Shown: positions 35,174 through 62,238 of the stretch, one piece after another
Layout: each line of letters starts with the position of its first letter
Position numbering within the stretch: the stretch's first letter is position 1
Assembly: GCA_018398585.1 (NCBI GenBank)
Contig: JAGTTD010000010.1
Span: forward strand, 4,481,501-4,545,500
Direction: 5' to 3'
Origin: Simmondsia chinensis
Taxonomy: Eukaryota; Streptophyta; Magnoliopsida; Caryophyllales; Simmondsiaceae
Length of the DNA: 64,000 nucleotides
The notes under the pieces: model-generated
Told to the model about the DNA's origin: nothing
Seen by the model: only the letters and a program-made list of their open reading frames with translations
Databases searched by the model: none
Program-made: the position numbers and the translations under genes

Positions 35174-35343
35174 GGGAAATCATAGCAAACAGACCCTCAC
35201 CCCCCATTTAATCTATTTTGAACCCCTATCTCACTAAACCAAATCTTTAGGACGATTTTGCCCCTGCCTTTTAACCCCCCAACGTCCAGTCTCTCTCTCC
35301 CCATCTCTCCCCTCATTTAATGCAACTCTATCTCCTCTGCAAA
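35174..35343 (+). repeat. Left MULE terminal inverted repeat
   Basis: It pairs with 62029-62238: GGGAAATCATA.CAAACAGA, TCTATTTTGAACCCCTAT, CACTAAA.CAA, TTTTAGGAC/CTTTAGGAC, CCTTTTAACC, AACGTCCA.TCTCTCTCTC and CCCCTCATTTAATGCAAC occur in the same order. Short C-runs here correspond to long homopolymer runs in the right TIR. Confidence 0.9.
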
Positions 35344-35421
35344 AACATCTCTATCTCCTCGCCCCCATTATTTCCCTCCCGTTTTCACTCTCTCTCCCCT
35401 CTGCATTATCATTTTGTGCAG

Positions 35422-38400
35422 GTGTGTTTTAAGTCATTAGTGGTGTATTATTAATCATACACCGTGTATGATTGGTTTAAATGGTGTGAAATCATTTTCT
35501 CTTGGTGTGTTTCAAATCATTTGTGGTGTATGATCAATCATACACCATGTATGATTGGTCTAAATGGTGTAAAATCATCTTTTTTATGTGTGTTTCTAGT
35601 GATAAGTGGTGTACGTTTAACCATACACCGTGTGTGATAGGTTTTAACGGTGTAAAATTAACTTGTGTTAGTGTGTGTTAAGTAATTAGGGGTGTATGAT
35701 CAATTATACACCGTGTATGATTGCTTTTAATGGCGTAAAACCAACCAGTTTATGTGTGTTTCTACTGATAAGTGGCGTATGTTTAACCATACACCGTGTA
35801 TTATAAGTTTTAACGGTGTAAAATCAACTTGTGTTAGTGTGTGTTAGGTCATTAGTGGTGTATGATTAATCATATACCATGTATGATTAATCATACACCG
35901 TGTATGATTGCTTTTAATAGTGTAAAATCAACTTGTCTAGGTATGTTTCAAGTAAATAGTGGTGTATGATTGCTTTTAATGTTGTAAAACCAACTAGTTT
36001 ATCTGTGTTTCTACTGATTAGTGGTGTATGTTTAATCATACACCGTGTATGATAAGTTTTAATGGTGTAAAATCAACTTGTGTTAGTGTGTTTTAAGTCA
36101 TTAGTGGTGTATGATTACTTTTAATAGTGTAAAACCAACTTGTCTAGGTGTGTTTCAAGTAAATAGTGGTGTATGATCAATCATACACCGTGTATGATTG
36201 CTTTTAATAGTGTAAAACCAACTAGTTTATGTGTGTTTCTACTGATTAGTGGTGTATGTTTAACCATACACCATATATGATAGGTTTTAACGGTATAAAA
36301 TCAACTTGTGTTAGTGTGTGTTAAGTAAACAGTGGTGTATGATTAATCATACACCGTGTATGTTTGGTTTTAATGGTGTAAAATCAACTTATGTTAGTGT
36401 GTGTTAAGTAAACAGTGGTGTATGATTAATTATACACCGTGTATGATTGGTTTTAATGGCGTAAAACCAACTTGTGTAGATGTATTTTAAGGAATTAGTG
36501 GTGTATGATCAATCATATACGGAGTATAATTAGTTTTAATGGTGTAAAATCAACTTGTGTTTGTGTGTATTAAGTAATTAGTAGTGTATGATCAATCATA
36601 CACCGTGTATGATAGGTTTTAATTGTATAAAATCAACTTGTTTATGTGTGTTTCTAGTGATTAGTAGTGTATGTTTAACCATACACTGTGTATGATAGGT
36701 TTTAACGGTGTAAAATGAATTTATGTTAGTGTGTGTTAAGTAAACAGTGGTATATGATTAATCATACACAGTGTATGATTGGTTTTAATGGTGTAAAATT
36801 AAATTGTTTTAGTGTCTTTCAAGTCATTAGTGGTGTATGATCAAGCATACACCGTGTATGATTGGTCTAAATGCTGTGAAATCAACTTGTTTATGTGTGT
36901 TTGTAGTGATTAGTGGTGTACGTTTAACTATACACCATGTATGATAGGTTTTAACTGTGTAAAATCAACTTATGTTAGTGTGTGTTAAGTAAACAGTGGT
37001 GTATGATTAATCACACACAGCATATGATTGGTTTTAATGGTGTAAAATCAACTTGTTTTAGTGTCTTTCAAGTCATTAGTGGTGTATGATCAACGATACA
37101 CCGTGTATGATTGGTCTAAATGATGTGAAATCAACTTGTTTATGTGTGTTTCTAGCGATTAGTGGTGTATGTTTAACCATACACCGTGTATGATAGGTTT
37201 TAACGGTGTAAAATTAACTTGTGTTAGTGTGTGTTAAGTAAACAGTGGTGTATGATTAGTGGTCTAAATGGTGTGAAATCAAGTTGTTTATGTGTGTTTC
37301 TAGTGATTAGAGGTGTATGTATAACCATACACCATGTATTATAGGTTTTAACTGTATAAAATCAATCATACACCGTGTATGATAGGTCTAAATGGTGCGA
37401 AATCAACTTGTTTATATGTGTTTCTAGTGATTAGAGTTGTATGTATGACCATACACCATGTATGATAGGTTTTAACTGTACAAAATCAACTTATGTTAGT
37501 GTGTGTTAAGTAAACAGTAGTGTATGATTAATCATACAACGTGTATGATTGGTTTTACTGGTGTAAAATCAACTTGTTTTAGTGTCTTTCAAGTCATTAG
37601 TGGTGTACGATCAATCATACACCGTGTATGATTGGTCTAAATAGTGCGAAATCAACTTGTTTATGCGTGTTTCTAGTTATTAGAGGTGTATGTTTAACCA
37701 TACCATGTATGATAGGTTTTAACTGTGTAAAATTAACTTATGTTAGTGTGTGTTAAGTAAACAGTGGTATATGATTAATCATACACCGTGTATGATTTGC
37801 CAAAATGGTACGAAATCAATTTGTTTATGTGTGTTTCTAGTGATTGGTGGTGTATGTTTAACCATACACCGTGCGTGATAGGTTTTCACGGTGTAAAATC
37901 AACTTGTGTTAGTGTATGTTAAGTAATTAGTGGTGTCTGATCAATCATACACCGTGTATAATTGCTTTTAATGGTGTAAAACCAACCAGTTTATTTGTGT
38001 TTCTACTTATTAGTTATGTATTTTTGACCATACACCGTGTATGATAGGTTTTAATGGTGTAAAATCAACTTGTGTTAGTGTGTGTAAAGTCATTGGTGGC
38101 GTATGATTAATCATACACCGTGTATGATTGCTTTTAATAGTGTAAAACCAACTTGTCTAGGTGTGTTTCAAGTAAATAGTGGTGTATGATCAATCAAACA
38201 CCGTGTATGATTGCTTTTAATGTTGTAAAACCAACTAGTTTATGTGTGTTTCTACTGATTAGTGGTGTATGTTTAATCATACATCGTGCATGATGGGTTT
38301 TAATGGTGTAAAATCAACCTGTGTTAGTGTGTTTTAAGTCATTAGTAGTGTATGATTAATCATACACCGTATATGATTGCTTTTAATGGTGTAAAATCAA

Positions 38401-40280
38401 CTAGTTTATGTGTGTTTCTACTGATTAGTGGTGTATGTTTAACCATACACCATGTATGATAGGTTTTAACGGTGTAAAATCAACTTGTGTTAGTGTGTGT
38501 TAAGGCATTAATGGTGTATGATTAATCATACACCGTGTATGATTACTTTTAATAGTATAAAACCAACTTGTCTAGGTGTGTTTCAAGTAAATAGTGGTAT
38601 ATGATCAATCATACACCGTATATGATTGCTTTTAATGTTGTAAAACCAACTAGTTTATGTGTGTTTCTACTGATTAGTGGTGTATGTTTAATCATACACC
38701 GTGTATGATAGGTTATAATGGTGTAAAATCAACTTGTGTTAGTGTGTTTTAAGTCATTAGTGGTGTATGATTAATCATACACCATGTATGATTGGTTTTA
38801 ATAGTGTAAAACCAACTTATCTAGGTGTGTTTCAAGTAAATAGTGGTGTATGATCAATCATACGCCATGTATAATTGCTTTTAATGGTGTAAAATCAACT
38901 AGTTTATGTGTGTTTCTACTGATTCGTGGTGTATGTTTAACCATACACCGTGTATCATAGGTTTTAACGGTGTAAAATCAACTTGTGTTAGTGTGTGTTA
39001 AGTCATTAGTGGTGTATGATTAATCATACACCGTGTATGATTGCTTTTAATAGTGTAAAACCAACTTTTCTAGGTGTGTTTCAAGTAAATAGTCGTGTAT
39101 GATCAATCATACACCGTGTATGATAGGTTTTAATGTTGTAAAACCAACTAGTTTATGTGTGTTTCTACTGATTAGTGGTGTATGTTTAATCATACACAGT
39201 GTTTGATAGGTTTTAATGGTGTAAAATCAACTTGTGTTAGTGTGTTTTAAGTCATTAGTGGTGTATGATTAATCATACACCGTGTATGATTGCTTTTAAT
39301 AGTGTAAAACCAACTTGTCTAGGTATGTTTCATACACCGTGTATGATTGCTTTTAATAGTGTAAAACCAACTTGTCTAGGTATGTTTCAAGTAAATAGTG
39401 GTGTATGATCAATCATACACCGTGTATGGTTGCTTTTAATGGTGAAAACCAACTAGTTTATGTGTGTTTCTATTGATTAGTGGTGTATGTTTAACCATAC
39501 ACCGTATATGATAGGTTTTAACGGTGCAAAATTAACTTGTGTTAGTGTGTGTTAAGTAAACAGCTGTGTATGATTGGTTTTAATGGTGTAAAATCGACTT
39601 ATGTTAGTGTGTGTTAAGTAAACAGTGGTGTATGATTAATCATACACGGTGTATGATTAATCATACACCGTGTATGATTGGTTTTAATGGTGTAAAATCA
39701 ATTTGTGTTTATGTGCGTTAAGTAATTAGTGGTGTATGATCAATCATACACCGTGTATGATAGGTTTTAATGGTATAAAATCAACTTTATTATGTGTGTT
39801 TTAGTGATTAGTGGTGTATGTTTAACCATACACTGTGTATGATAGGTTTTAACGGTATAAAATCAACTTGTGTTAGTGTATTTTAAGTCATTTGTTGTGT
39901 ATGATTAATCATACACCGTGTATGATAGGTTTTAACGGTGTAAAATCAACTTGTGTTAGTGTGTGTTAAGTAAATAGTGGTGTATGATTAATCATACACC
40001 GTGTATGATAAGTTTTAATAGTGTAAAATCAACTTATTTTAGTATGTGTTAAGTAAACAGTGGTGTATGATTAATCATACATCGTGCATGATTGCTTTTA
40101 ATGGTGTAAAATCAACTTGTGTTGGTGTGTTATAAGTAAACAGTGGTGTATAATTAGTCATATACCGTGTATGATTGGTTTTAATTGTGTGAAATCAACT
40201 TGTCTAGGTGTGTTTCAAGTCATTAGTAGTGTATGATTAATCATACGATGTGCATTGTTGGTTTTAATGGTGTATCATGG
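35422..40280 (+). repeat. Left ~83-bp tandem array (about 58 units), palindromic
   Basis: The unit is about 83 bp. Each has a near-palindrome such as GTGTATGATTAATCATACAC followed by CGTGTATGAT (a third arm), then a TTTTAATGGTGTAAAATCAA spacer and a GTGTGTTTMAAGTCATTAGTG phrase. Spacer variants (CTTGTCTAGGTG, CTAGTTTATGTG, CTTGTGTTAGTG) recur in order in many places, giving a trimeric higher-order repeat of about 249 bp (for example 38100-39300). Unit count is length divided by period. The array begins exactly at a strong donor (TGTGCAG/GTGTGT, 35421/35422) and ends shortly before the acceptor TTTTATTTTAG at 40320, so it is probably an intron. Confidence 0.93.
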
Positions 40281-40320
40281 GTTTAATCTTGGGTTTTGTG
40301 CTGTTTTTCTTTTATTTTAG

Positions 40321-42296
40321 ATGGCATTTGAGACACGCATGAGGAGCCGATCAGAAGTGGAGGTTGGTTTCATTTTCCCTAGGAGTCGCTGGAAATTCCT
40401 ACCGGTTAACCAGATGGGAATGTCAACCAAAGCTATAACGGAGATTAGGAAAACCTTGAAGGACGACGAATCCAAGGTTTGACACAGTATCCATATGAAT
40501 TATGTTGACTTTTTACTATTACATTTATGATCCTTTATTAACTAAAAGTGTTTTGCATTATAGCTTGCCCTTGTTTCAAATTACAATGTCGGGCATCTGC
40601 TCGAGCTGCGTGAGACTAATGTCGGCTTCTGGCATAGTCTGATTCACGTTGTCCTTCTCCACCAGGTGGCCAACCCAAATCCCGAGGAGTTATCATTCTT
40701 GTTTGGTGGGAATATTGTGCACCTCGGGAGGAGGGAATTTTGTATTATAATCGGCTTGAGATATGCCAGTGTAGAAGATGTACGCGGTGGTTCCAACAGG
40801 CTAATTGCCAAGTACGGCATGAGGGGGAGGATGAGTAGGCAGCAGCTGCTTGAAGCACGTAGTACCTGCTCCACTATGGAGGACCAGGTTAAGCTTGTTG
40901 TTGTCTACTTGGTCGAGGGTCTACTGTTCGCCAAACATAAGAGAACAACCATTGACCCAAACATCCTGGCCCTCGTGGACGACGTAGACTCTTTTAATAG
41001 TGTTGCTTGGGGATCCTTGAGCTGAAAATTCTTGGTGCGGAAACTCAAAGATTTCGTAGCAAAAAAGCAAGACGGTTTGGAAAAGACCTACTCCGTCCAA
41101 GGGTTCTACGATGTGGTTTCCAAATTTGCCATGGAAACCATTCCAGAACTGGCTAAGGTTGGGGTGGTGAGGATTGGCAATCAGTATGTTGAGCGGATCC
41201 TTAACTGGAAAATGGACAAAAGGGTTCGTACAGCGCTCCATTGTCAACACTGTTTGATCAGGTAATAATACAATATTTTGATACTATTTTACCATTAGTC
41301 GTTTGATATCAATTGCATTAGAATTACTATTTGGTACTTTTATTAACGTTCATATGATGTATCTTTCTTTGATCAGCGATTGAATGCCGAATTGATTAGA
41401 CTGACGAGTGCAGAAGCCAGTCAGCCTAATCTACAAGGCATTCCCATTGCTGAGGATGGTGAAATGGGAGTTCAAACTCATGATGGGGCAATGCCAGCAG
41501 ATTCAAACTTTGATCCAGAACCGTTGGCTACTCAACACCCCTTGCCCACATCCCACTACAAACCATCTATTACGTAAAAAAATTTGGCGTTTCAATCGGT
41601 AATCACAATTCGTTTTGTGTTTATACAATTGCATTTGTTCTTGTACGTATCATATTAGTTAAATGCAATTTTATGATGATTTAAAGGACATACTGTAGGT
41701 TATTGAGAGACTTGAAGCAATGGAGAAAGAAATGGAAAGCATGCGGCAAATAAACCTTCAATTTGAAAGCAAACTTGAAGAACAACAGCAACAGATCTAG
41801 TTAAATGAGAGCACTATTCAAGCGCAAAAGGATCTGTTGCAAGCATATGAACAAAGGTTTGAAGCTCATGAGGCTAAGATTCAGGAGCTTTCATACCGAT
41901 TGCCTCATGTCACAACTCCCCATCATTCTCCATCACCTTCATCTCCTTCATACCCTGTTGAAACTCCACAACAAGCAATTATTATTTTTCCTCCACATAC
42001 TGTGTAAGACACTACGAATCTTTGTTATTGTCCCAATTCAGTGAGTATGTTTTCATGCATGCTGAAATTCATTCACTTTGATATTTGTTCTGCCAACCCA
42101 GGGATGAGGGAAATGTCTTCAAGCAACCAATGTCAACATATTTGGATGACGATGCTTGCTTGGTGACAGTGTCTAAGACACTATGGGAATTGGAACACCA
42201 GAGGAGGGACCCCAAGCCAAACCCAAAATACAAAGGTGATGAATGGACTGCTGAGGGTAAGAGCAAACAGCAAAGGAGGACGGCTTCTCTACCATA
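40321..42296 (+). pseudogene. DUF1985 N-terminal and coiled-coil part of a MULE-borne DUF1985/Ulp1 gene, with nonsense codons
   Basis: It starts MAFETRMRSRSEVEVGF right after an acceptor. Exon 40321-40476 joins 40564 in frame. NPEELSFLFGGNIVHLGRRE and FCIIIGLRY are the DUF1985 core. The frame hits TGA at 41023-41025 (family members read Trp here), then continues openly (VRKLKDFVAKKQDGLEKTYS) to a donor at 41261. Later exons include 41377-41599 and 41699-42006 (coiled coil ERLEAMEKEMESMRQ ... QKDLLQAYEQRFEAHEAK with a TAG where Gln is expected), then 42085-42294. The phase across intron 41262-41376 does not fit cleanly. DUF1985 plus Ulp1 genes are typical MULE passengers. The N-terminal half is likely broken. 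Confidence 0.8.
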
Positions 42297-42419
42297 ACCG
42301 GTTCTGCCCTTAAATACATTCCAACCTCCCTCCAAATAACAACAAAAAGAGTTTGAAGTTTTTTACAAAAGTTTCTACGCAAAGGTTAAAAAGTGAGTGC
42401 GTAATAACACTATACTTTT

Positions 42420-42712
42420 TGATGGTGTATGATTAATCATACACCGTGTATGATTAATCATACACCGTGTATGATTGGTTTAAATGGTGTGAAATCATTC
42501 TCTGTTGTGTGTTTTATGTCATAAATGGTGTATGATCAACCATACACCGTGTATGATAGGTTTTAATGGTGTAAAATTAATTTGTGTAAGTGTGTTTCAA
42601 GTAATTAGTGGTGTAGGATCAATCATACACGGTGCATGCTAGGCTTTAATGGTGTGTAATCATGTTGTGTTGGTATGTTTTAAGTCACTAATGGTATATG
42701 ATTGATCATTTT
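42420..42712 (+). repeat. Small ~83-bp array in the intron before the Ulp1 exons
   Basis: About 3-4 units in the same orientation as the left array (GTGTATGATTAATCATACAC, then TGGTTTAAATGGTGTGAAAT). It runs up to the acceptor TTTTGCAG at 42709-42716 and so lies inside the gene. Confidence 0.9.
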
Positions 42713-42716
42713 GCAG

Positions 42717-43460
42717 GAAATGGATGTCATAATATATTATCTTATGCAGAAGAAACACGTATTGCCAGATAATTTTGATATGAGGGCAACATGTTCAAAC
42801 ACAATCATTGCTTCTCTATTGCGATCCATTTTCCTTGGCGTGCAGAACGGTGAAACAAAAATTGAAACAGCTTTCGATGATTGGGATTCGTTGATAATCA
42901 AGTTTCTTGTAGGGGACGACAAATATGGGGTACGATGCCATGACCTTGACAGGGTACACATGCCCATCAATCAAACTGGTCACCATTGGTTTCTTGCTGC
43001 CATCCATTTTATTGAATGGGGGATAAAGGTTTTTGATTCTCTGTACTCCGCAACAGCAAAGGGATCAAGGTTAGAGCATGTGGAGCCAATTGCAAGATTA
43101 CTTCCATATGCTCTTGAGAAGGTTGATGTTTGGGTCTTCAGGAAGGAGCTGTCTGAATTCAGAGGCAAACCTTTCCAAATCACCTACGAACCCGATTCAT
43201 GCCCACAACAAATGGGGTATGACATATATTACCTTGTATATTATTTATTATTCAATGGAAAAAAGTCAGTAATTATGTTACAATGAAGCCTAATATCCTA
43301 TTGTGTCATCTGTTTTATATTGAAATGCAGGTCAGATTGTGGCATGTTTGTCGTAAAGTTTATTGAATTTTTGCTTACAAATGGCCTCAGCATCTCCCAA
43401 TACACATACTTGTATAGTCATGGAAGAAAGAAACAGATGAAAATGTATACAAGTGAATAA
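42717..43460 (+). CDS. Ulp1-like SUMO protease (C48) catalytic domain of the MULE-borne gene
   Basis: Two exons, 42717-43216 and 43331-43460, join in phase (ATG-GG / G-TCA) to give 208 residues with no stop. The cysteine-protease set is complete: His in TGHHWFLAAI, Asp in KVFDSL, oxyanion Gln in SCPQQMG and nucleophile Cys in GSDCGMFVVKF. Enzymes of this family remove SUMO from lysines or process SUMO precursors; the targets of transposon versions are unknown. A poly(A)-signal-like AATAAAAT lies near 43683. The domain is open although the upstream part of the gene carries stops, so either it is young or a shorter product is made. Confidence 0.85.
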
Positions 43461-43909: not shown

Positions 43910-45385
43910 ACAAAATTTTACACTATTAAAACTTATCATACATCTTGTATGATTGATCATGCATCACTAATTTCTTGAAAAACACCTATACGAGTTCATT
44001 TCACACCATTTAAACCTATCATATACAGTATATGATTGATCATACACTACTAATTACTTCAAACACATTAAAACAAGTTGATTTCACATCATTTAAACCT
44101 ATCATACACCGTGTATGATTGATCATACACCACTAATTACTTCAAAAACACCAAAACAATTTGATTTCACACCATTAAAACCTATCACATACCGTGGATG
44201 ATTGATTATACAACATTAATTACTTGAAACACATTAATACAAGTTCATTTCACACCATTTAAACCCAACATGGTGTATGATTGATCATACACCACTAATT
44301 ACTTAAAACACTTACACAAATTGATTTTACACCATTAAAACTTATCATACACCGTGTATGATCAATCATACACCACTAATTACTTGAAACACACCTATAC
44401 AAGTTCATTTCACACCCTTAAAACCCACATTACACCGTTTACGATTAATCATACACCACTAATTACTTCAAACACATTAAAGCAAGTTGATTTCACACCA
44501 TTTAAACCCATCATACACGGTGTATGATTGATCATACACCACTAATTACTTAAAATACACTTACACAAATTAATTTTACACCATTAAAACTTATCATATA
44601 TCGTGTATGATTGATCATACACCACTAAATACTTCAAAAACACCTACACAATTTGATTTCACACCAGTAAAACCTATCATACACCACTAATTACTTGAAA
44701 CACATTAATACAAGTTCATTTCACACCATTAAAACCTGTCATACACGGTGTATGATTGATCATACACCACTATTTACTTCAAACACATTAGTTGATTTCA
44801 CACCTTTTAAACCTATCATACACCGTGTATGATCGATCATATACCACTAATTACTTCAAAAACACCTACACAATTTGATTTCACACCATTAAAACCTATC
44901 ATACACCGTGTATGATTGATCATATACTACTAATTACTTGAAACACATTAATACAAGTTCATTTCACACCATTTAAACCCATCATTCACGGTGTATGAAT
45001 TATCATACAACCACTAATTACTTCAAAAACACCTACACAATTTGATTTTACACCATTAAAACTTATCATACACCGTATATGATCAATCATACACCACTAT
45101 TTACTCTAAAGACACTTACACAAATTGATTTTATACCATTAAGACAAATCATACACCATGTATGGTTGATCATACATCACTCATTACCTGAATCACACAT
45201 GTACAAGTTCATTTCACACCATTTAAACCTGTCATACACGGTGTATGATGGTTCATACGCCACTGATTACTTAAAACACACTTACACAAGTTGATTTCAC
45301 ACCATTAAAACCCATCATACATGGTGTATGATTGATCATACACTACTAGTTTCTTAAAACACACCTATACAAGTTGACTTCACAA
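43910..45385 (-). repeat. Central ~83-bp array (about 18 units), reverse orientation
   Basis: Units read ...CATTTAAACCTATCATACAC, CGTGTATGATTGATCATACACCACTAATTACTTCAAACACATTAAAACAAGTTGATTTCACAC, the reverse complement of the left array. It lies between the Ulp1 gene and the captured AGO exon. Confidence 0.92.
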
Positions 45386-45411
45386 AACTAATGATACTTT
45401 CTTGGAATCAC

Positions 45412-49248: not shown

Positions 49249-49284
49249 TACTGTGAACACGAAAGTAACATGATATTAGACCAC

Positions 49285-50159: not shown

Positions 50160-50480
50160 TGTCAAGCTTCAAGATGATCTTGTAGCTTAACCTAGTGATA
50201 GAATAGAGTTAAGATGAGAAAGAAGGGAAATAGGGATGGGAATTGAAGAAGAATCAAGATGAGAGAAGAAAATATCTCAATGTGATATGTGTGTTTGTAT
50301 TCATTGATACCGGCTGCAACTAACAACCTTATGCTTATATAGTATAGCTAAGTATGAAAGATCAAGCAAAACATAACTAACTCACTTTGGGCCTAAGCCC
50401 AACAACATGACTTACAACCTTTAACTCATAAATCAAAAACAATAAACCAATTCTATTATAATTTAGCTCAGTGTATAACA
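50160..50480 (-). repeat. 3' LTR of the Ty3 element
   Basis: TGTCAAGCTTCAAGATGATC ... GTGTATAACA. It differs from the 5' LTR at five places (for example TGTC/TGTT, GGGATGGG/GGGATGAG). Confidence 0.95.
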
Positions 50481-50491
50481 TTCCCTCTCCC

Positions 50492-51035: not shown

Positions 51036-51638
51036 TCAGGAGTGGAGGACACGAATTTCTGCAACAATAGGGGAGAGGGTGGTGCATAGCCATAGACAAT
51101 GAAAGTAAGTATTGTACCAAAACTCAGCTAATGACAACCATTTACCCCACTGCTTAGGCTGACAGAACACCATGCTTTTGAAGCACTGCTCCAAGCATTG
51201 ATTGACCCTCTCTGTTTGTCCGTCAGTTTGTGGATGGTATGAAGAGCTTAGAACCAAGGTGGTGCCTAACAAGCTGAATAGCTCCCTCCAGAAGTGGCTG
51301 GTGAACAACTTGTCACGGTCAGAGACTATGGTGTGTGGCAAATCATGTAGCTTGTATATGTTGTCAACGAAGAGCTTAGCAAGTTTTTCTGCTGTAATTG
51401 GTCTAGCAAGTGCAAGGAAGTGGCTGAATTTGGTAAATCTGTCTACCACTACCCAAATTACCTCCTTCCCTTCAGACTTTGGCAGGCCCTCAATGAAATC
51501 CATGCTGATGTGTTGCCAAGATCCTTCAGGGATTGGTAGGGGTTGAAGGAGGCCTTGTTACTTATGATTCTCAAGTTTGGTTTGTTGACAAACCTCACAA
51601 CTTTGCACAAACTCTTTCACCTCCTTATTCAGCCCATT
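51036..51638 (-). pseudogene. Ty3 integrase core
   Basis: A zinc-finger half CEVCQQTK (near 51597) precedes a stop. The open core follows (MDFIEGLPKSEGKEVIWVVV, DRDKLFTSHFWRELF, GQTERVNQCLEQCFK), which has the D, D and E of the catalytic triad. A deletion near 51110 (NTYFHC then a jump toward YGYAPP in another frame) ends it. Confidence 0.88.
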
Positions 51639-53384
51639 CTAGTCAAATTGAGCCTTCAACCTCTGGTAGGTACCTTCTACCCCAAAGTGTCCTCCCCAAG
51701 CAGAGTCGTGGCCTGCAGCAATGATATGTTGTCTTAGTTCAGTTGTGGCCCCAATGTAGAGCTTCCCTTGCAATCGGATAGTTTCCTGAACAATTGTAAC
51801 ATCAGAGCCAATAGTTGCCTTGTCCTGCCCTTTTATGGAGAATGCAGTGATACATTCTTGTGCAAATTCATCACCCTCATAAGACCTGTGCACTTCATCC
51901 ATCCAGGCTGGTAAGATGATGGACACAACCCCACATGAGTCATGTTCAGCTTCCTTAAATCTCCTTGATAGAGCATCGGCCGCCTGATTTTCTTTCCCTT
52001 TCTTGTACTCTATAGCATAAGTCAGCCCCAACATCCTCATCAGGCCTTTTTTCTGAATTCTGGTGATGATCTTTTGCTCCAGCAGATATTTCAAACTCTG
52101 ACGGTCTATTCTTATGATGAATCGATGACCCTCCAAGTAATGCCTCCACTTGTCAACAGCTAGCAGTATTGCCAAGTATTCCTTCTCATATGTTGATAAT
52201 TCTTGATGTTTGGCACTAAGAGCCTGGCTGAGATAAGCAATTGGTCTTCCTCCTTGTGACAGAATAGCCCCAATGCCACTCCCACTTGCATTTGTTTCTA
52301 AGATGAACTCCTCAACAAAGTTAGGCATGGCTAAGATAGGGGCTGCACACATTGCTTCCTTCAAGGCTTCAAAAGCACTTTGAGCCTTAGCAGTCCATAG
52401 GAAGGCATCTTTCTTCAGAAGGTCTGTCAATGGCTTGGCAATGGATCCATAACCAGCTATGAATTTCCTGTAATAGCCTGTTAAACCCAAGAATCCTCTT
52501 AGTTGCTTCAAGGTAGTGGGAATTGGCCACTCCCTCATGGCTTTTACTTTAGAAGAATCAGTGGCAAATCCTTCTTGGGAGATGACATGACCCAGATACT
52601 CAATCTGAGGCTGCGCAAAAGAGCACTTGGATAGCTTGGCGTACAGCTTGTGACTTCTCATCAGCAGGAATACTTCCTTCAAGTGACTCACATGTTCTTC
52701 CAGTGAAGAGCTATAGATGAGTATGTCATCGAAGAATACCAGAAAAAATATTCTCAATAGCGGTTTGAAAACTTCATTCATGACTGCTTGGAATGTAGCT
52801 GGAATATTTGTCAAACCAAAAGGCATGACTACAAACTCAAAATGTCCATGGTGAGTCCTGAATGCTGTCCTGTAGATGTCTGGCTCTAAGACTATGATTT
52901 GATGATAACCTTGCCTCAAGTCCAACTTGGAAAAGAAGCAAGCCCCTCTCAACTCATCAAGGAGGTCATCAATAACGGGGATTGGAAACTTGTCCTTAAT
53001 GGTCATGGAGTTCAGCTGTCTGTAGTCAATACACATTCTAGTCGATTCATCCTTCTTCTTCACTAAGATAACAGGAGATGCAAATGGACTGTGGCTAGGT
53101 CGGATGAAGCATGACTTGAGTAGCTCTTCCACTTGCCTATCTATCTCTGTTCTTTGTGAATGAGGACACCTGTAAGGCCGAAGTTTCACAGGTTCTGAAT
53201 TCATCTTTAATGGAATTGCATGATCTAAGTTCCTCTTGGGAGGTAAGGCTGTTGGCACTTCAAACAAGTCCTTGAACTCTTCAATTAGATCATGTACTAC
53301 TGAGTGAGGCTGGACCTGCACTTTAGAGGGAGAGACAACAAAAAATTGCCCAACCCACTGGTAGGCCTTTTTCCTGATCCCCAC
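51639..53384 (-). CDS. Ty3 reverse transcriptase, RNase H and integrase N-terminus
   Basis: An open 581-codon frame. RT: RMCIDYRQLNSMTIKDKFPI, FSKLDLRQGYHQI, TAFRTHHGHFEFVVMPFGLT and catalytic FFDDILIYS. RNase H: FILETNASGSGIGAILSQ, YEKEYLAI, AADALSRRF. The frame ends in the integrase zinc-finger region (HDSAWGGHFGVEGTYQRL) at a TAG where Trp is usual. It copies element RNA to DNA. This is the best-kept part of the element, though the polyprotein is not continuous with protease or integrase here. Confidence 0.93.
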   Translation of the reverse strand: MGIRKKAYQWVGQFFVVSPSKVQVQPHSVVHDLIEEFKDLFEVPTALPPKRNLDHAIPLKMNSEPVKLRPYRCPHSQRTEIDRQVEELLKSCFIRPSHSPFASPVILVKKKDESTRMCIDYRQLNSMTIKDKFPIPVIDDLLDELRGACFFSKLDLRQGYHQIIVLEPDIYRTAFRTHHGHFEFVVMPFGLTNIPATFQAVMNEVFKPLLRIFFLVFFDDILIYSSSLEEHVSHLKEVFLLMRSHKLYAKLSKCSFAQPQIEYLGHVISQEGFATDSSKVKAMREWPIPTTLKQLRGFLGLTGYYRKFIAGYGSIAKPLTDLLKKDAFLWTAKAQSAFEALKEAMCAAPILAMPNFVEEFILETNASGSGIGAILSQGGRPIAYLSQALSAKHQELSTYEKEYLAILLAVDKWRHYLEGHRFIIRIDRQSLKYLLEQKIITRIQKKGLMRMLGLTYAIEYKKGKENQAADALSRRFKEAEHDSCGVVSIILPAWMDEVHRSYEGDEFAQECITAFSIKGQDKATIGSDVTIVQETIRLQGKLYIGATTELRQHIIAAGHDSAWGGHFGVEGTYQRLKAQFD

Positions 53385-53420
53385 ACTTAACCCCTTGCTA
53401 GTAATCAGCTGAATTTGGCC

Positions 53421-54483
53421 TTAATCTGCCATGCCTTGCAGCTTAACTGTGGAACCATGCATATCAAAAGAGACTACCAACTGAGCAAAATCAATGACCA
53501 CAGGGCTAAAGGTCCTCATCCAATTCACCCCAAGGACCATTTCACATCCTCCTAGGGGGAGAATTCTGAAATCATAGGTGAACTTATGGTTCTGCATAGT
53601 CCAATTGAAGTTCTGGCACTTAGTCCGAGTGAGGATTGAGTTTCCATCAGCTACGGTTACAGCTAAAGGGTGTGTTCTGATGATCTCATGGCCCACCTTC
53701 CTAACTATCTTAGGATCAATGAAGCTATGCGTGCTACCACTATCAATCAGAATCACAATGGACTTTTTGCTAGCTTGCCCCTTGATCCTAATGGTATTGT
53801 GAGCCCCATTGCCTGTTAGTGCCTTCATTGAAATTTCCACTTCATCCTCCAAGACTTCCTCTGCACTGTCTGTTTTAGAATTAGCCTCTTCACTATCGGA
53901 ATCATCCTCAGCTGTAGCCCCTCTTGCAGACATGAGATACTTAGCGTTACACTTATGTCCAAAGAAGTAAGGTTGGTTGCATTTAAAACACAACCTCTTA
54001 TCCTTCCTGTCATCAGTATGCCCCTGTTTCATTTTCCCAGTGTTCTTTATTTGTGAAGAAGCTCCACTGGATCTGCTCCTACCCCCTTCACTTGTAGCTA
54101 AGACAGTAAAACAGCTTGGCTTTGGCATATGCCTTAGACAAAGTTCTGGGTCCTACGGCCTTCACCAAGTTCTTTATGTTTGGTTTCAGACCACTGATGA
54201 AATTGGACACAATAGGCCTCAGTTGCTTGTGGGTAGGCCGCTATCATACTTGCTCTAAGGTTTTCAAATCTAACCATGTATTCCTTCATAGAAGTAACTT
54301 GAATTACTTTGTTAAAATTATCAACTATATCACTAGAATCCTCATCTCCATATCTCTCACACAATTCCATCACAAATTCATCCAAAGTCAAGGAAGGGTT
54401 GCTTTTCAAGAGGCTACAAATCCATACCTCGTGATCACCATGGAGGTATACAGAAGCTAGCTCAACTCTCTAATCATCAGCAA
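53421..54483 (-). pseudogene. Ty3 gag C-terminal half, zinc knuckle and aspartic protease
   Basis: Beyond the LINE the gag core resumes (RVELASVYLHGDHEVW, NPSLTLDEFVMELCERYGDE, YMVRFENLRASM). A frame change near 54130 leads to the zinc knuckle CFKCNQPYFFGHKC and the protease active site LIDSGSTHSFI, with GVNWMRTFSPVVIDF. Zinc knuckle and protease share one open frame (54128-53421). Confidence 0.88.
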
Positions 54484-54904
54484 CAACAACAACTACAATA
54501 ACAACAACAACAAACCCAGTGCCTCCAAGGGCTCCGGCCAAAAGCAGGGTCTGGGGAGGGTAGATGTATGCAGCCTTCCCCCTTCAAGGGGCTACCTTGA
54601 AGAGAGCCTGTTTCCGAGGACCCCTAGCCTAAAAAGATGGTCTGCATCCATCAGCCAAAGACTTGGCACAGGAGAAACATAAAAAATGCATAAGTATGGC
54701 AAAAAAAAAAAAAAAAAAAGGTAAAAGAGATAAAGAAAGAGAACGAGAATGAGAATGAGATAGGGATAGAAAAGATAGAGACAAAGACTATCCTACTTTA
54801 ACCGGATCATCCAATACCCTTATGCTAGCCCTCCATTGGGGCCTATCTAAGGCCATCTCCTCCCAAAGGTTTATGTGGGTGAGGTCTTGTCGGTTCGTTT
54901 AAAG

Positions 54905-56619
54905 TCATCTCTTCTTTGGTCTGCCTCTACCTCTTCTGCCTAATGTAGTAAGAGGCTGTTCGCATCTTCTGATTGGAGTGTCGTCCGGTCTCCTTCTGAC
55001 ATGTCCGAACCACCTCAGACGTTGCTCCCTTAATTTATCTTCAATGGGAGCTACGCCCAGTTTGCCTCTTATGATGTCGTTTCTGATCCTATTCTTCCTT
55101 GTGTGTCCGCACATCCACCTCAGCATTCGCATCTCCGCCACCTTCATCTTCTGTGTGTGCTGTTGTTTCATCGCCCTGCACTCCGCCCCATACGCCATGG
55201 CTGGCCGCACCACCGTCTTGTTGTATCTTCCCTTTAGCTTCAAAAGGAATTTCCTATCACAAAGTACCACGGAGGCCATCCTCCACTTGTGCCATCCCGC
55301 TTTGATCCTGTAGCTGACATCCTCGTCCACTTCGCCGTTGTGCTGTATCGTGGACCCTAAGTACCTGAATCTCTCCTTCTTCGAAATGGCCTCGTGTCCA
55401 ATCTTGACTTCTTCCCGGCTAGGCATGATAGAGGGATCGAACTTGAGTTCCATGTGCTCGGTCTTGGCTCTGCTTGGTCGCAAACCCTTCGACTCTAAAA
55501 CTCCTCTCCACAGTTCCAGTTTCTCATTTATCTCTTCCCGCGACTCTCCCACCAGTACTATGTCATCTACAAAAAGCATGCACCAAGGTACACATCCCTG
55601 GATGTGCCTAGTGAGCTCGTCCATAACCAAAATGAACAGATAGGGGCTCAAGGCAGACCCTTGGTGAACCCCTACTGTTATCGGGAAAGCGCCTGACTCC
55701 CCATCCACTGTACGCACCATAGTCTGTGCCTCTTCATACATGTCTTTAATGGCTCGGATGTATGGTACAGGGATGCCTTTCCTGTCCAAAACTCTCCAAA
55801 GGACCTCCCTTGGCACTCTATCAAATGCCTTCTCTAAATCAACGAAAACCATATGAAGGTCCTTTTGTCTCTCCCTATTTTGCTCTATCGTCCGGCTTAG
55901 GATGTGGATGGCTTCTATTGTTGATCTCCCGGGCATAAATCCAAACTGGTTCTCGGACACCTCAGTCAGATGCCTTAACCTCCTCTCTATGACCCGTTCC
56001 CACAACTTCAGAGTGTGGCACATTAGTTTGATACCCTGATAGTTGGCCCAACTCTAAATGTCGCCTTTGTTCTTATATATCGGTATCAATGTGCTCTTCC
56101 TCCATTCCTCAGGCATCTTGTCCCCCTAGAGGATTTGGTTAAATAGTTTAGTCAGCCAAATGACGCCCTTTTGTCCAAGACATTTCCATGCTTCTACGGG
56201 GATGCCATCTGGGCCAACTGCTTTACCCCTTCCCATGGATCTCGAGGCTTCCTTGACTTCGTCGAGGCTAATTTGCCTACATTCGCAATGGTTTTGATGC
56301 ACCTCAGATGTTTGAAGATCACCTAAGGATATCTTTGTCCCCCCTTGTTCGTTGAACAGCTCTTGAAAGTACATTTTCTACCTAGACTTGAGTAGATGCC
56401 GGTCCACGAGTACCTGTCCATCTTCCCCTCTTATGCATTGCACTCTATCCAGGTCTCTGGTCTTCCTTTCTCTAGCTTTGGCGATTCTATATAAGTCCCT
56501 CGCACCCTCCTTGGTCTCCATCCTTTTGTAGAAGTCCTCATAAGCTCTTGATTCTGCTTCTCTGACTGCTCGCTTTGCTTCTCTCCTGGCTTGAATATAC
56601 CGCTGTCGCTTATCCTCAT
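54905..56619 (-). pseudogene. RTE LINE reverse transcriptase, disrupted
   Basis: Linker (56619-56431), N-terminal RT (GRGKAVGPDGIPVEAWKCLG, near 56240) and main RT block (56023-54905): ENQFGFMPGRSTIEAI, LHMVFVDLEKAFDRVPRE, GVHQGSALSPYLFILVMDEL and the catalytic CMLFVDDIVLVGES. The thumb (RYLGSTIQHNGEVDEDVSYR) and C-terminus follow. Stops near 56050, 56126 and 56430 break the frame. The C-terminal part is nearly the same as the copy in HPR1 intron 5. Confidence 0.9.
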
Positions 56620-56650
56620 CCTTGCTATGGTCCCACTCTCTGAAACAAAC

Positions 56651-57352
56651 TCATTTCACCTTAATCTTCTCTAAGACCTCGTCACCCCACCACCAGGATT
56701 CTCTGTTACTTGGTGCCCTTCCCTTTGACGTGCCGAGGACTTCCCGTGCCAGCCCTCTGATCTTTTGGGCCAGATGGTTCCACATCTGGTTTGTGTCTCC
56801 TTCAAAGTCCTCCCTGAGTTCAGCCTCCACTTTTTCCTTGCATAACTCATACTTCTCCCCCTTAAGCTCCCTCCAACAAGTGTGCATATGCGCAGGTTTG
56901 CAGATTCTTTTGGCCCGCCCCTTGGCCTTTATATCCGCCCACAGCACCCTATGTTGCGTAGACAGGTCTTCACCTGGGTTAGTCTTGTAATCCCTGCAGT
57001 CTCTTTGCAACCTTCTCCTTAATAGTATGTAGTCAATCTGTGTTCTTATCCCGCCACTTTGGTACGTGATGATGTGTTGCTCGCGCTTTCTGAAGAAGGT
57101 GTTGGCCACTGTTAGGTCGTAAGTAACCGAGAAGTCTAATACGGCTTTGCCCTCTGCATTCCGGGTTCCAAAACCGAATCCTCCGTGGTGAGGAGCATAA
57201 CCGTCCTTCGTTGCGCCAACGTGTCCATTGAAATCCCCGCCAATCATTACTTGTTCGGTTGGGGGTATGCCCTGTATCATTGTGTCTAAGTCCTCCCAAA
57301 AAGTAGCCTTCTCATGCTCAGACAGTCCGGTTTGAGGTGCGTAGGCACGGAA
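56651..57352 (-). pseudogene. RTE LINE endonuclease domain (truncated)
   Basis: AYAPQTGLSEHEKATFWEDL, MIGGDFNGHVG (catalytic GDFN motif) and the C-terminal RTQIDYILLRRRLQ and STQHRVLWADIK show an APE-like endonuclease that nicks target DNA. The N-terminal third is missing because of 5' truncation. A stop near 56650 separates it from the linker (56619-56431). Confidence 0.88.
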
Positions 57353-58003
57353 CATTAGCAATGTGATAGAAAAGAAAATAGCGTTCACACCTCCTCAGCC
57401 AAGAGTGTGCTTGCTTCCCTTCAAAGGGCTCTAACTAGATCCGTGGTTGTCTGAAACCACCAGCCTTATAGCAGGATGAGTTGTCATTTTTCACAGAGTC
57501 CGGTGGCTGTGGTTGATCAGCTGGTTGATCATTCTGTCCCATTGATAAGCTAGCAGCAGGAACATGTCTGTGCTCTGGGGGTGATCCTGTGGCCCCACCG
57601 CTACATTAGGAATGAGGGGTGGCTCCCCTCTTGGAGGTTGGCCCAATTGACTAGCAGGCAACAAAACCCCAGCACTGGATGATGCCTCCTGTCTATCGAT
57701 TTGAGCTTGAAGACCAGCAATCTGCTCATCAAACCTCCTGCTCTGCTGTTGCATTTGATCAGACAGCTTCTGATCATGCCCTGATTGCATTACTCTCACC
57801 TGGGCAAACATCTGTTCCATTTGTGTTTGAAGCATTGCCTTCATTTCCTCTCTGAATTGGGATATAGTGAGTTTCTCTGAATTGGGAGCTACTACTCCTT
57901 CCACTACTGCTGCATAAGAAACATTTGGATCCACATTAGCAGCTACTGCTGCTGCGGCTGCTGCGTTAGCTGCTCCAGCTGTTGTGGTTACTCATCCGGA
58001 CAT
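57353..58003 (-). pseudogene. Ty3 gag, N-terminal half (upstream of LINE insertion)
   Basis: It would start MSG at 58003, with a TGA as fourth codon. An Ala-rich stretch and VDPNVSYAAVVEG follow, then coiled-coil-like text (FREEMKAMLQTQMEQMFAQ). After a frameshift near 57500, the Ty3 gag core begins (EPFEGKQAHSWLRRCERYFL, FYHIAN) and is cut by the LINE. The reading resumes at 54480 on the far side of the LINE. Confidence 0.85.
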
Positions 58004-58061
58004 GGATGACTATTGCTCAATGATCAGAATCAACCCAATAGTAACAGGCTTTGATACCAAT
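57935..58061 (-). other. Ty3 5' leader with PBS
   Basis: The region between the 5' LTR and the gag body. PBS TGGTATCAAAGC is at 58060-58049 (minus). It is short, as in many chromoviruses, and overlaps the first gag codons. Confidence 0.6.
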
Positions 58062-58382
58062 TGTTAAGCTTCAAGATGATCTTGTAGCTTAACCTAGTGA
58101 TAGAATAGAGTTAAGATGAGAAAGAAGGGAAATAGGGATGAGAATTGAAGAAGAATCAAGATGAGAGAAGAAAATATCTCAATGAGATATGTGTGTTTGT
58201 ATTCATTGATACCGGCTGCAACTAACAACCTTATGCTTATATAGTATAGCTAAGTATGAAAGATCAAGCAAAACATAACTAACTCACTTTGGGCCTAAGC
58301 CCAACAACATGACTTACAACCTTTAACTCATAAATCAAAAACAATAAACCAATTCTATTACAATTTAGCTCGGTGTATAACA
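58062..58382 (-). repeat. 5' LTR of the Ty3 element
   Basis: TGTTAAGCTTCAAGATGATC ... GTGTATAACA. A TATA-like CTTATATAGTATAG sits mid-LTR in both copies (plus-strand reading). Confidence 0.95.
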
Positions 58383-61300
58383 TATAATTGATCATACACC
58401 ACTATTTTCATAAAACACACTAAAACAAGTTGATTTCACACCATTTAGACCTATCATACACGGTGTAAGATTGATCATACACCACTATTTTCTTAAAATA
58501 CACTAGAACAAGTTGATTTCACACCATTTAGACCAATCATACACAGTGTATGATTGATCATACGCCACTAATTGCTTAAAACAGATTAATACAAGTTGAT
58601 TTTACACCCTTAAAACCTATCATACATGGTGTATGATTGATCATACACCACTGTTTTCTTAAAACACACTAAAACAAGTTGATTTCACACCATTTAGACC
58701 AATCATACACGGTGTATGATTAATTATACACCACTATTTACTTAAAACACATCAAAACAAGTTGATTTTACACCCTTAAAACCTATCATATACGGTGTAT
58801 GATTGATCATACACCACTAATTGCTTAAAACACACTAAAACAAGTTGTTTTCACACCATTTAAATCAATCATATACGGTGTATGATTGATCTTACACCAC
58901 TAATAACTTAAAACACACTAAAACAAGTTGATTTACACCATTAAAACCTATCACATACGGTGTATGATTGATCATATACTACTAATTACTTAAATCACAT
59001 TAAAACAAGTTGATTTTACACCCTTAAAACCAATCATACATGGTGTATGATTAATCATACACCACTAATTGCTTAAAATACACTAAAACAAGTCGATTTT
59101 ACATCATTTAGACCAATCATACACGGTGCATGATTGATCATACACCACTATTTACTAAAAACACATTAAAACAAGTTGATTTTACACCCTTAAAACCGAT
59201 CATACATGGTGTATGATTGATCATACACCAAAAATTGCTTAAAATACACTAAAATAAGTTGTTTTCACACCATTTAGACTAATCATACACGGTGTATGAT
59301 TGATCATACACTGCTATTTTCTTAAAACATATGATTGATCATACACTACTAATGACTTAAAACACATTAAAACAAGTTGATTTTACTCCCTTAAAACCTA
59401 TCATACACGGTGTATGATTAATCATACACCACTAATAGCTTAAAACTCACTAAAACAAGTTGATTTCACACCATTTAGACCAATCATACACGGTGTATGA
59501 TTTATCATACACCACTATTTACTTAAAACCCATTAAAATAAGTTGATTTTATACCATTAAAACCTATCATATATGGTGTATGATTGATCACATACCACTA
59601 ATTGCTTAAAACACACTAAAACAAGTTATTTTCACACCATTTAGACCAATCATACACGGTGTATGATTGATCATATACCACTATTTACTTAAAACATATT
59701 AAAACAAGTTGATTTTACACCCCTAAAACCTATCATACACGGTGTATGATTGATCATATACCACTATTTTCTTAAAACAGATTAACATAAGTTGATTTTA
59801 CACCCTTAAAACCTATCATACAAGGTGTATGATTGATCATACACCGCTATTTTCTTAAAACACACTAAAACAAGTTGATTTCACACCATTTAGACCTATC
59901 ATACACGGTGTATGATTGGTCATACACCACTATTTTCTTAAAACACACTAAAATAAGTTAATTTCACACCATTTAGACCAATCATACACGGTGTATGATT
60001 AATCATACACCACTATTTACTTAAAACACATTAAAACAAGTTAATTTTACACCCTTAAAACCTATCATACACGGTGTATGATTGATCATACACCACAAAT
60101 TACTTAAAACACGCTAAAGCAAGTTGTTTTCACACCATTTAGACCTATCATACACAGTGTATGATTGATCTTATACCACTAATGACTTGAAAGACACTAA
60201 AACAAGTTCATTTCACACCATTAATACCTATCATGCACGGTGTATGATACATCATACACCACTAATGACTTAAAACATATTAAAACAAGTTGATTTTACA
60301 CCCTTAAAACCAATCATACACCGTGTATGATTGATCATACACCACTAATTGCTTAAAACACACTAAACTAAGTTGTTTTCACAGCATTTAGACCAATCAT
60401 ACACGGTGTATGATTGATCTTACACTACTAATGACTTGAAAGACATTAAAACAAATTTATTTTACACCCTTAAAACCTATTATACACGGTGTATGATTGA
60501 TCATACACCACAAATTGCTTAAAACACACTAAAACAAGTTATTTTCACACAATTTAGATCAATTATACACGATGTATGATTGATCTTACACCACTAATGA
60601 CTTGAAAGACGCTAAAACAAGTTGATTTACACCATTAAAACCAATCATAAGGGTTTTTGATTGATCATAAACCACTATTTTCTTAAAACACACTAAAACA
60701 AGTTGATTTCACACCATTTAGACCAATCATATATGGTGTATGACTGATCATACACCACTATTTACTTAAAACACATTAAAACAAGTTGATTTTACACCTT
60801 TAAAACCTATCATACACGGTGTATGATTGATCATACAACACAAATTGCTTAACATACACCAACACAACATAGTATTACAACATTTAAACCAATCATACAC
60901 CTTGTATGATTTGGGATAAAACGATTATTGACTTCAAACAACCAACAATATATGACATTACACCATTTAAACCAATCATAAACCATTAATTACTTCAAAC
61001 AACCAACAAAAAATGATATTACACCATTTAAACCCATCATACATGGTGTATGATCAATCATACACCAATAATGACTTAAAACACACCAACACAACTTGAT
61101 ATTATACCATTTAAACCAACCATACATGGCGTATGATTGATCATACACTACTCATTACTTGAAACACGCCAAGAGAAAATGATTTCACACTGCTAAAACC
61201 AATCATACACGGTGTATAATTAATAATACACCATTAATGTCTTAACTCACACCAATATACTGTGATAATATACCATTTAAACCAACCATACACGGTGTAT

Positions 61301-61680
61301 GATTGATCATACCCCACTCATTACTTGAAACACACCAACGGAAAATGATTTCACACCATTAAAACCAATCATACACTATTAATGAGTTGAAACACACCAT
61401 AAGAAAATGATAATACACCATTTACACCCATCAGACATGGTGTATGATTGGTCATACCTCATAAATGACTTGTAACACACTAACACCAAATGACAAAGAT
61501 CCATACCATTAAAACCAATCATATATGGTGTATGATTAATCATACACCATTAATGAGTTGAAACACATTATAAGAAAATGATAATACACCATTTACACCA
61601 ATCATACACGGTGTATGATTGATCATACACCATAAATGACTTGTAACACACTAACACCAAATGACAAAGATCCATTAACG
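58383..61680 (-). repeat. Right array, outer part (about 40 units)
   Basis: A continuation of 49285-50159 beyond the Ty3 insertion, same orientation and same alternation of CACACCATTTAGACC and CACCCTTAAAACC spacers (~166-bp dimer). Units toward 60900-61680 are more divergent (AATGACTTGTAACACACTAA, AATGAGTTGAAACACACC). It ends next to a donor-like GAAG/GTAAAA (minus, near 61708). Confidence 0.93.
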
Positions 61681-62028
61681 ACAAATGCATGAAATAATCA
61701 TTTTACCTTCAATGTCTGATCTGAGAACCATGAAATGTGTAATGACTCAACCTTAGACCTACCGCAATGCCACAATGCTCCAAACCCGTTCTTACAAGGC
61801 CTTCTTCTTCTTCTTCCTAGGGCCCAAGTAGGACAAGGAAACATGCAGGACGTTGAGAATGGAGCTCGGGGATTCCAAAATGAGAGAAAAAGAACAAAGA
61901 AGAGAGAATGAGATATGAGAGAAGGAAGACAAACGGGGGAAAAGAAAAGGGAAGGATAGAATGAAAAGCAACATAGTTGACAAAAAGTCAAAAAATTGTC
62001 CTTTTGCATTAAATGAGGAGAGAGAAGG
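61681..62028 (-). other. Inner flank of the right MULE TIR (possible leader exon of MURA)
   Basis: On the minus strand this region runs from the TIR toward the array and ends in GACATTGAAG/GTAAAATG, a plausible splice donor at about 61708. The 103-codon frame here has no recognisable domain. I read it as promoter plus 5' leader of the transposase transcript, mirroring the left side. Confidence 0.4.
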
Positions 62029-62238
62029 GCACAGGAGAGAGAGGTTGCATTAAATGAGGGGAAAGAAGGGGAGAGAGAGAGTGGACGTTTTTTTTTTGGG
62101 GGGGGGGGGGGGGGGGAGGTTAAAAGGCTGGGCCAAAATGGTCCTAAAAGGTTGATTTAGTGATATAGGGGTTCAAAATAGATTGGGGGGGGGGGGGGGG
62201 GGGGGGGGGGAGGGGGAATCTGTTTGGTATGATTTCCC
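62029..62238 (-). repeat. Right MULE terminal inverted repeat, inflated by poly-G runs
   Basis: The reverse complement of the left TIR with two G-runs inserted or expanded (62098-62116 and 62185-62210). A second TTGCATTAAATGAGG block lies just inside (about 62006-62020), so the inner edge is duplicated. Confidence 0.88.

Follow-up and report, generated by a model that had tools for sequence, protein, structure and literature searches.

What, if anything, does a transposable element gain from tandem repeats that fill the non-coding space around and within its own genes? This question is raised by an element at 35174-62238 of the window, by which we mean the whole 64,000-nucleotide stretch of Simmondsia chinensis DNA analyzed here. 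The element is a TIR-bearing MULE with a direct 9-bp TSD, AAAGAAGAT, on its left (35165..35173) and right (62239..62247) flanks. Its TIRs align locally over 187 bases at the left end (35174..35360, plus strand) and 224 bases at the right (62015..62238, minus strand), both are homologous in seven other copies, and the window copy contains a MULE transposase domain (Pfam MULE, 4.1e-23; DBD_Tnp_Mut, 4.8e-6). An earlier note on this DNA had identified a MULE bounded by a TSD and TIRs, an assignment upheld by the AAAGAAGAT direct repeat, the TIR alignment and the transposase domain. The search it proposed for further family members with the same TIRs and arrays yields seven more full-length copies that share the layout of the window element. 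TIR ends can be located in all eight copies, and the 9-bp TSD is exact in six, with eight of nine bases matching in C11 and seven of nine in C30.

The two genes converge, as claimed earlier, with a DUF1985/Ulp1 gene on the plus strand and MURA on the minus strand. The first coding exon of the DUF1985/Ulp1 gene (40321..40476) has an acceptor AG immediately 5′ of its ATG and is followed by the DUF1985 exon (40564..41261; Pfam E 2.6e-13), additional exons placed roughly at 41379..42393 with the L013 gene model as a guide, the Ulp1 (Peptidase_C48) exon (42717..43216; Pfam E 1.5e-9, and read from sequence) and a final Ulp1 exon, also read from sequence, that carries SDCGMF (43331..43460). MURA comprises an N-terminal part (48838..49248) with an acceptor AG two bases 5′ of the ATG, a core with the Pfam MULE and DBD_Tnp_Mut matches (47599..48474) and a C-terminal exon (46253..46742). 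Among the transposases found, those of elm are nearest. That the DUF1985 and Ulp1 domains belong to one gene is borne out by Pfam and by the L013 model, which joins DUF1985 (E 2.4e-13) and a near-complete C48 domain (E 1.6e-21) in a single gene; one exon start of this model was set by comparison with the window, as no AG there left the frame open. C48 matches occur in all eight copies and DUF1985 in all eight members of alignment A1; for the C48b query, translated out of frame, we rely on the match position alone. For the DUF1985 exon, dN/dS has a median of 0.31 (105 pairs, 15 copies) and is low between distant copies, and some shallow pairs give high values (0.92 for L038-L040 in DUF1985; 2.06 for W-C3 in C48). 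No DUF287 match appears at E <= 1 in the one gene model searched with Pfam (L013), the DUF1985 exon and the 804-aa model have no protein match at E <= 0.001 in a word-based search that requires shared 5-residue words, and the C48 exon has none at E <= 0.01 among PDB sequences. The AlphaFold prediction for the DUF1985 exon is poor (mean pLDDT 37, eight rows). Separately, seven of the eight DUF1985 members match Plant mobile domain at E <= 0.1 (best, 4e-4), which we treat as a lead only; the score of the first member, 17.2 bits, is below the cut-off of 34.9.

The window copy is decayed. Both genes contain in-frame stops, one of them at 41023-41025 in the DUF1985 exon; the DUF1985/Ulp1 gene lacks one later exon that the seven other copies possess; and MURA reads VSN where seven of the nine copies covering that stretch have VSD. 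An LTR-type insertion with a LINE-like stretch, foreign to the MULE (50160..58361, minus strand; RVT_1 and RNase H matches), has 300-base direct repeats (50160-50459 and 58062-58361) that are 99% identical. Because it splits the right array, the MULE proper measures ~19 kb.

Arrays occupy the large non-coding gaps in all eight copies and make up 40-67% of the element; a by-eye comparison of lists from these copies reveals no overlap of an array segment with a coding match. In the window, where arrays were called with TRF, the left array of ~83-bp units (35422..40274, plus strand) precedes the coding start of the DUF1985/Ulp1 gene and is probably contained in the leader intron, and another array lies in an internal intron of the same gene (42425..42709, plus). 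The remaining arrays are on the minus strand: one between the 3′ ends of both genes, in MURA sense (43915..45384), one in an internal intron of MURA (46851..47233), and the MURA-adjoining (49320..50160) and outer (58383..61675) parts of the right array. The opposed orientation reported earlier is seen in every one of the eight copies, flipping between the convergent genes barring scattered single opposite-sense matches. Confinement to first introns, by contrast, does not hold, as internal introns and intergenic space contain arrays too, some lie up to ~10 kb from an end of the element, and in L038, a sequenced subfamily member, the main array is upstream of the leader. An array-bearing relative, L012, has TIRs, opposed arrays and an exact 9-bp TSD, and no DUF1985, C48 or MURA matches.

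Most of the predicted splice sites are conserved. The acceptors proposed ahead of the two ATGs (40321 and 49248) are retained, that before the first DUF1985/Ulp1 coding exon in 8/8 copies (its ATG in seven) and that before the MURA ATG in all seven copies with a MURA N-terminal match. The right donor, previously put at about 61708, also finds support: the right leader end (61707..61760, minus strand) has a predicted donor GAAG/GTAAAAT, which puts the intron start at 61706, and its GT is present in six of eight copies and altered in C15 and C11. The left donor assigned to TGTGCAG/GTGTGT at 35421 proves instead to be a deletion scar. In the seven other copies the stretch separating TIR from array is ~700-800 bp longer, and the bases that precede GTG at the matching array position are CTG, CTA or TTG, never CAG. 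The true left donor likely falls within the ~700-800 bp missing from the window copy; in undeleted copies, a likely candidate is an AAG/GT located ~390-490 bp in from the left end, and its GT is kept in 10 of the 11 copies or subfamily members read.

The palindrome GTGTATGATTRATCATACAC, allowing up to three mismatches, occurs 124 times in the window, every time within the element, and is absent from each of five mononucleotide shuffles of the element; genome-wide, motif matches exceed 25,000 on each strand. The ~83-bp units have ~20.75-bp sub-repeats. With the word GTGT, chosen for periodicity after the unit had been inspected, the left array of the window (n = 262) has a power of 97.1 at 20.75 bp and 4.3 near 10.5 bp, peaks elsewhere fall at 10.35 bp in L014 (power 43.9) and 10.25 bp in L012 (power 40.2), and L038 and L040 have weak peaks at 10.90 and 10.20 bp (n = 11 and 12). 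Outside the 82-84 range, 71 of 156 palindrome spacings differ by no more than 1.3 bp from a multiple of 20.75, where 13% would be expected if spacings were uniform, but slippage between sub-repeats would give the same excess. Helical phasing is only partly supported. We reject the head-to-head palindrome as a specially constrained site because its conservation is no higher than that of the remaining unit. Mean identity of the palindrome is 0.837 versus 0.845-0.865 elsewhere with sub-repeat 3 as anchor (691 units, eight copies) and 0.772 versus 0.792-0.859 with sub-repeat 4 (753 units), where the outside ranges include the anchored sub-repeat and a palindrome-anchored run is excluded, as its near-symmetrical anchor mixes strands. 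In L038 and L040, which have a different array unit and where GTGTATGATTRATCATACAC is rare, a tail-to-tail dyad is retained.

By analogy with known systems, we think it probable that the window element, a decayed copy, belongs to an amplified TIR-MULE family equipped with an anti-silencing module of the VANC/KIU type. In this reading, the DUF1985-Ulp1 protein would bind the repeated array motifs, whether in introns, between genes or in terminal non-coding DNA, and, once bound, could strip silencing marks locally; both convergent genes could then be transcribed through the arrays, which would be spliced out. The changed unit and retained dyad of L038 and L040 parallel the way in which VANC targets are described to differ between families (PMC5735166, PMC10398659). 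Counting against such a module are the lack of extra conservation in the palindrome, the absent DUF287 match, the intact TIRs, the pLDDT of 37 and the high dN/dS of the shallow pairs noted above.

Could the arrays have grown without any reader? A T-rich intron repeat might have spread by slippage or unequal exchange into all non-coding gaps with no protein target, and the near-even conservation along the unit without palindrome-specific constraint, together with ~21-bp spacing steps that slippage between sub-repeats can produce, fits such neutral satellite growth. We nevertheless consider it unlikely, given identical placement in 8/8 copies with orientation following the genes, a dyad kept by subfamily members having another unit, and the persistence of arrays and TIRs in L012. 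Arrays near both ends in opposed orientation, and the retention of only ends and arrays in L012, would also suit extended subterminal repeats bound by MURA for transposition, with the DUF1985/Ulp1 gene a passenger. This proposal seems to us more doubtful still: arrays also occur in internal introns and between genes, up to ~10 kb from an end, and the low dN/dS of the DUF1985 gene between distant copies argues that it is not a mere passenger.

A role in RNA, whether as a T-rich sense intron that boosts expression or splicing or as a small-RNA decoy, would agree with a sense strand that is 38-40% T in six stretches of array in the window copy and with an orientation that follows the genes even in internal introns. 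However, the intergenic array and the main array of L038 fall outside predicted introns and the inverted half-site dyads point to a reader of DNA, making this the least probable of the alternatives and, in our estimation, a remote one. Returning to the anti-silencing module, a more detailed version is possible and is offered tentatively. In TIR-MULEs of this host, the DUF1985-Ulp1 protein may read inverted GTGTATGAT half-sites on a ~20.75 bp lattice, or two helical turns, and thereby turn the element's own introns into kilobase anti-silencing platforms, tolerable as the T-rich strand is the gene sense; a nested subfamily would have switched its unit and kept the tail-to-tail dyad.

More broadly, should the element's own protein target the arrays, sequence-specific anti-silencing would extend beyond the TIR-less VANDALs of Arabidopsis to another plant, where it would take an extreme form in MULEs that bear TIRs. 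Subfamilies with shared versus shifted motifs would then offer a ready test of co-change between DUF1985 proteins and their DNA targets, as well as of how genes can be transcribed across kilobases of repeats of the kind on which silencing normally acts. If the GTGTATGAT-lattice reading is also true, the unit switch of the subfamily would be a natural experiment in protein-target co-evolution outside TIR-less VANDALs.

Much of this has precedent. DUF1985 and DUF287 occur in VANC proteins, confirming the link between VANC and DUF1985 made in the earlier note; VANCs that contain DUF1985 bind motifs of nine bases located in tandem repeats, and the repeats bound by VANC21 sit in introns as well as in intergenic and terminal non-coding DNA, including introns of VANC21 and VANB21 (PMC5735166). 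Ulp1 is carried by some VANCs, according to a review (PMC13317346), and is described in both orientations in grapevine TIR-MULEs in an article that also cites melon TIR-MULEs (PMC2528002). As these texts already report DUF1985 VANCs with intron targets, VANCs that carry Ulp1, and TIR-MULEs with Ulp1, the claim of a distinct design was too strong.

VANDAL21/VANC21 and VANDAL6/VANC6 of Arabidopsis resemble the present family as MULEs with a DUF1985 gene, which acts in anti-silencing in VANDALs, in tandem-repeat motifs within introns, intergenic and terminal non-coding DNA, and in motif change between related families (PMC5735166, PMC10398659). VANDALs are described as non-TIR MULEs with degenerate TIRs (PMC10398659), whereas the TIRs here are intact, and our element differs further from VANDAL21 and VANDAL6 in its Ulp1 domain, missing DUF287 match and array share. 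KIU/Kaonashi VANDALs likewise combine a VANC-type gene and captured Ulp1 beside a transposase gene, but are described as non-TIR MULEs (PMC13317346). The grapevine and melon Ulp1 TIR-MULEs share TIRs, a 9-bp TSD and Ulp1 in either orientation to the transposase, but the term 'tandem repeat' is absent from the main text of PMC2528002. By description, barley Abermu MULEs are similar in their TIRs (138-145 bp, GGG...CCC ends), 9-bp TSD, large size and an ORF opposite to the transposase, and the main text of PMC9168764 contains neither 'tandem repeat' nor 'Ulp1'. Set beside these systems, what is new here is the extent of the arrays, their ~20.75-bp sub-repeat, an orientation that follows the genes, the presence of TIRs and a change of motif from one related subfamily to another.

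A single MULE insertion spans 35174-62238. Its ends, GGGAAATCATA[G/C]CAAACAGA..., are inverted repeats aligning over 187 and 224 bases, and a direct 9-bp duplication, AAAGAAGAT, lies outside both, bearing out the boundaries proposed in the earlier note. The two convergent genes described there were recovered as well: the plus strand carries one gene with a DUF1985 and an Ulp1-type C48 domain, and the minus strand carries MURA, the transposase gene. The window copy has the Ulp1-like residues HHWF, FDSL, CPQQ and DCG, which we take to be the catalytic positions of the Ulp1 domain. An LTR-type insertion at 50160-58361, with 99% identical direct repeats of 300 bases (50160-50459 and 58062-58361), contains a Gypsy-like polyprotein and a LINE-like stretch and splits the right array, so that the MULE proper is ~19 kb. 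Gypsy-like RT/RNase H lies on the minus strand of this insertion, with a LINE-like RT and a weak endonuclease match inside. Long G runs occur in or beside the right TIR (62104-62121, 62185-62216 and 62935-62971), and other copies have C/G runs of differing lengths at these places.

The element belongs to a family. In the host genome (831 Mb, 35 contigs), 40 of 281 candidates from a left-end search were scored, all 40 being listed, and taking loci where opposite-sense ends pair at 16-24 kb yielded seven more copies with the same TIRs and arrays, or eight with the window copy. At least one further end pair (on C29), and possibly one on C10, lie outside this sample. Both ends are present in all eight copies; the 9-bp duplication is exact in six, 8/9 in C11 and 7/9 in C30. 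The first exon, DUF1985, C48 and the C-terminal exon of MURA are matched in every copy; among the eight searched, C11 gave no match to the MURA core or N-terminus queries. The window copy lacks one exon that all seven others have. At three other loci (L009, L010 and L011; G000:C1:1355000-1385000), two array-bearing stretches ~17-18 kb apart have very similar palindrome spacing and look as if the whole element had been duplicated. DUF1985 itself is abundant, with at least 150 loci above the Pfam cut-off (150 of 521 candidates scored), many of those listed lying in open reading frames ~270 aa long.

Array segments account for 40-67% of element length in the eight copies, the window copy's 40% being reckoned on a length that includes the nested insertion, and, compared by eye, overlap coding matches in none. 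The earlier note placed the arrays in probable first introns; in all eight copies they do precede each coding start, and they are equally present within the DUF1985/Ulp1 gene in an internal intron, next to the C-terminal exon of MURA and in the gap separating the 3′ ends of the genes. Their opposite orientation was confirmed: it flips past the DUF1985/Ulp1 gene, which puts the intergenic stretch in the sense of MURA. In six array stretches from the window copy, T accounts for 38-40% of the sense strand. Copies with the genes and without arrays, which the earlier note had set against its reading, were not found among the eight examined. Genome-wide, the head-to-head palindrome of the unit has 25,454 forward and 26,737 reverse matches at ≤1 mismatch, and a reversed palindrome has none; given that the 87,689 bp of array from the eight copies contain 635 forward matches, the host genome carries, by rough estimate, about 3.5 Mb of such arrays.

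Four sub-repeats make up the 83-bp unit; they are 21, 20, 21 and 21 bp long and all start with GTGT, and GTGT-to-GTGT distances in four left arrays peak at 21, 41-42, 62, 83, 104, 124-125, 145, 166 and 187 bp. In the window left array, periodicity power is 97.1 at 20.75 bp versus 4.3 near 10.5 bp, and the repeat is thus a two-turn one with no clean single-turn component. We rejected the head-to-head palindrome as a specially conserved site, its conservation being not above that of the rest of the unit.

The predicted splice sites fared unevenly. The left donor proposed at 35421 was rejected as a deletion scar: all seven other copies have ~700-800 bp extra at this position, and none reads CAG there. 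The true left donor likely follows TTTAATCACCATTTCC, judging from sequence conservation, with GT kept in 10 of 11 sequences read (C3, C22, C15, C2, C14, C30 and the further loci L035, L037, L013 and L038) and GC in C11; the L040 match is too brief to read, and L036 and L039 gave no match. On the MURA side, the donor proposed at ~61708 keeps its GT in six of eight copies and is changed in two. The acceptors suggested before both ATGs held up, in 8/8 copies for the DUF1985/Ulp1 gene and in all seven found for MURA. Splicing at these candidate sites is predicted from sequence evidence only.

Among six loci sampled from the DUF1985 list, two (L038 and L040) have arrays built of 173-174-bp units, L040 additionally having short stretches of 83-bp units. 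The main array of L038 lies upstream of the leader and a second one in an internal intron; its leader intron holds just a few degenerate units. When ≤3 mismatches are allowed, L038 has 27 and L040 has 24 occurrences of the tail-to-tail dyad ATCATACAC-N-GTGTATGAT, and 3 and 8 of the head-to-head dyad; the other 18 sequences counted have similar numbers of both. In one first-order Markov sequence for each of the 20 loci, the head-to-head dyad was absent from all, and a looser tail-to-tail dyad from 19, with one occurrence for C30. A midpoint-rooted tree built from 15 DUF1985 exons groups L038 with L040 in a single clade (100/100), adjoined (97/99) by L013, which carries an array of the 83-bp type. 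Because L038 and L040 are close relatives, the unit change represents one shift rather than several.

Some relatives carry arrays or ends with less coding sequence. L012 (1060-8754) has TIR-like ends and an exact 9-bp duplication, AAATTTTTT, and its 214-216-bp units form two opposed arrays; tblastn with DUF1985, C48 and MURA queries found no match in it, nor in L042, which is 1.8 kb long and has three copies of the motif and a 7/9 duplication. L041 (526-8785; 8.3 kb) has TIRs and two opposed C48 exon copies, its ends being present with no clear duplication.

At the DUF1985 exon, dN/dS has a median of 0.31 (15 copies giving 105 pairs). The medians for C48 (10 copies, 44 pairs), the MURA core (9 copies, 36 pairs) and the MURA N-terminus (8 copies, 28 pairs) are 0.44, 0.48 and 0.47, respectively. 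Values tend to be low between distant copies (L035-L038 DUF1985, 0.21; window copy-L040 MURA core, 0.19) and higher between close ones (L038-L040 DUF1985, 0.92; window copy-C3 C48, 2.06), as would be expected if source copies maintain the genes and new copies let them decay once inserted.

As a lead, the DUF1985 exon (L038:2608-3306 and its paralogues) may resemble the plant mobile domain, matching it below threshold in seven of eight aligned members (best E 4e-4); PMC7156037 places this domain in MAIN and MAIL1, host proteins of transposon silencing. Four of the features seen here have each been published before: motif arrays within introns, VANCs with DUF1985, VANCs carrying Ulp1, and TIR-MULEs with Ulp1. 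Literature searched by title and start of abstract contained no TIR-MULE with such arrays, and a 2022 eudicot paper may cover more.

The gene, the arrays, their places and the unit shift fit the VANC/KIU scheme best, and by analogy each step from binding through anti-silencing would operate here. According to PMC5735166, VANC21 binds a 9-base motif, tandemly repeated in VANC21 and VANB21 introns and other non-coding DNA, and causes DNA methylation loss; the paper also marks DUF1985 and DUF287 regions on VANC proteins. The family described here likewise has a DUF1985 gene and repeat arrays in introns and other non-coding DNA. Its Ulp1 domain recalls KIU-type VANCs, which carry Ulp1 (PMC13317346). 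Finally, VANC6 is associated with motifs other than those of VANC21 (PMC5735166), and here too the array unit shifts within the family.
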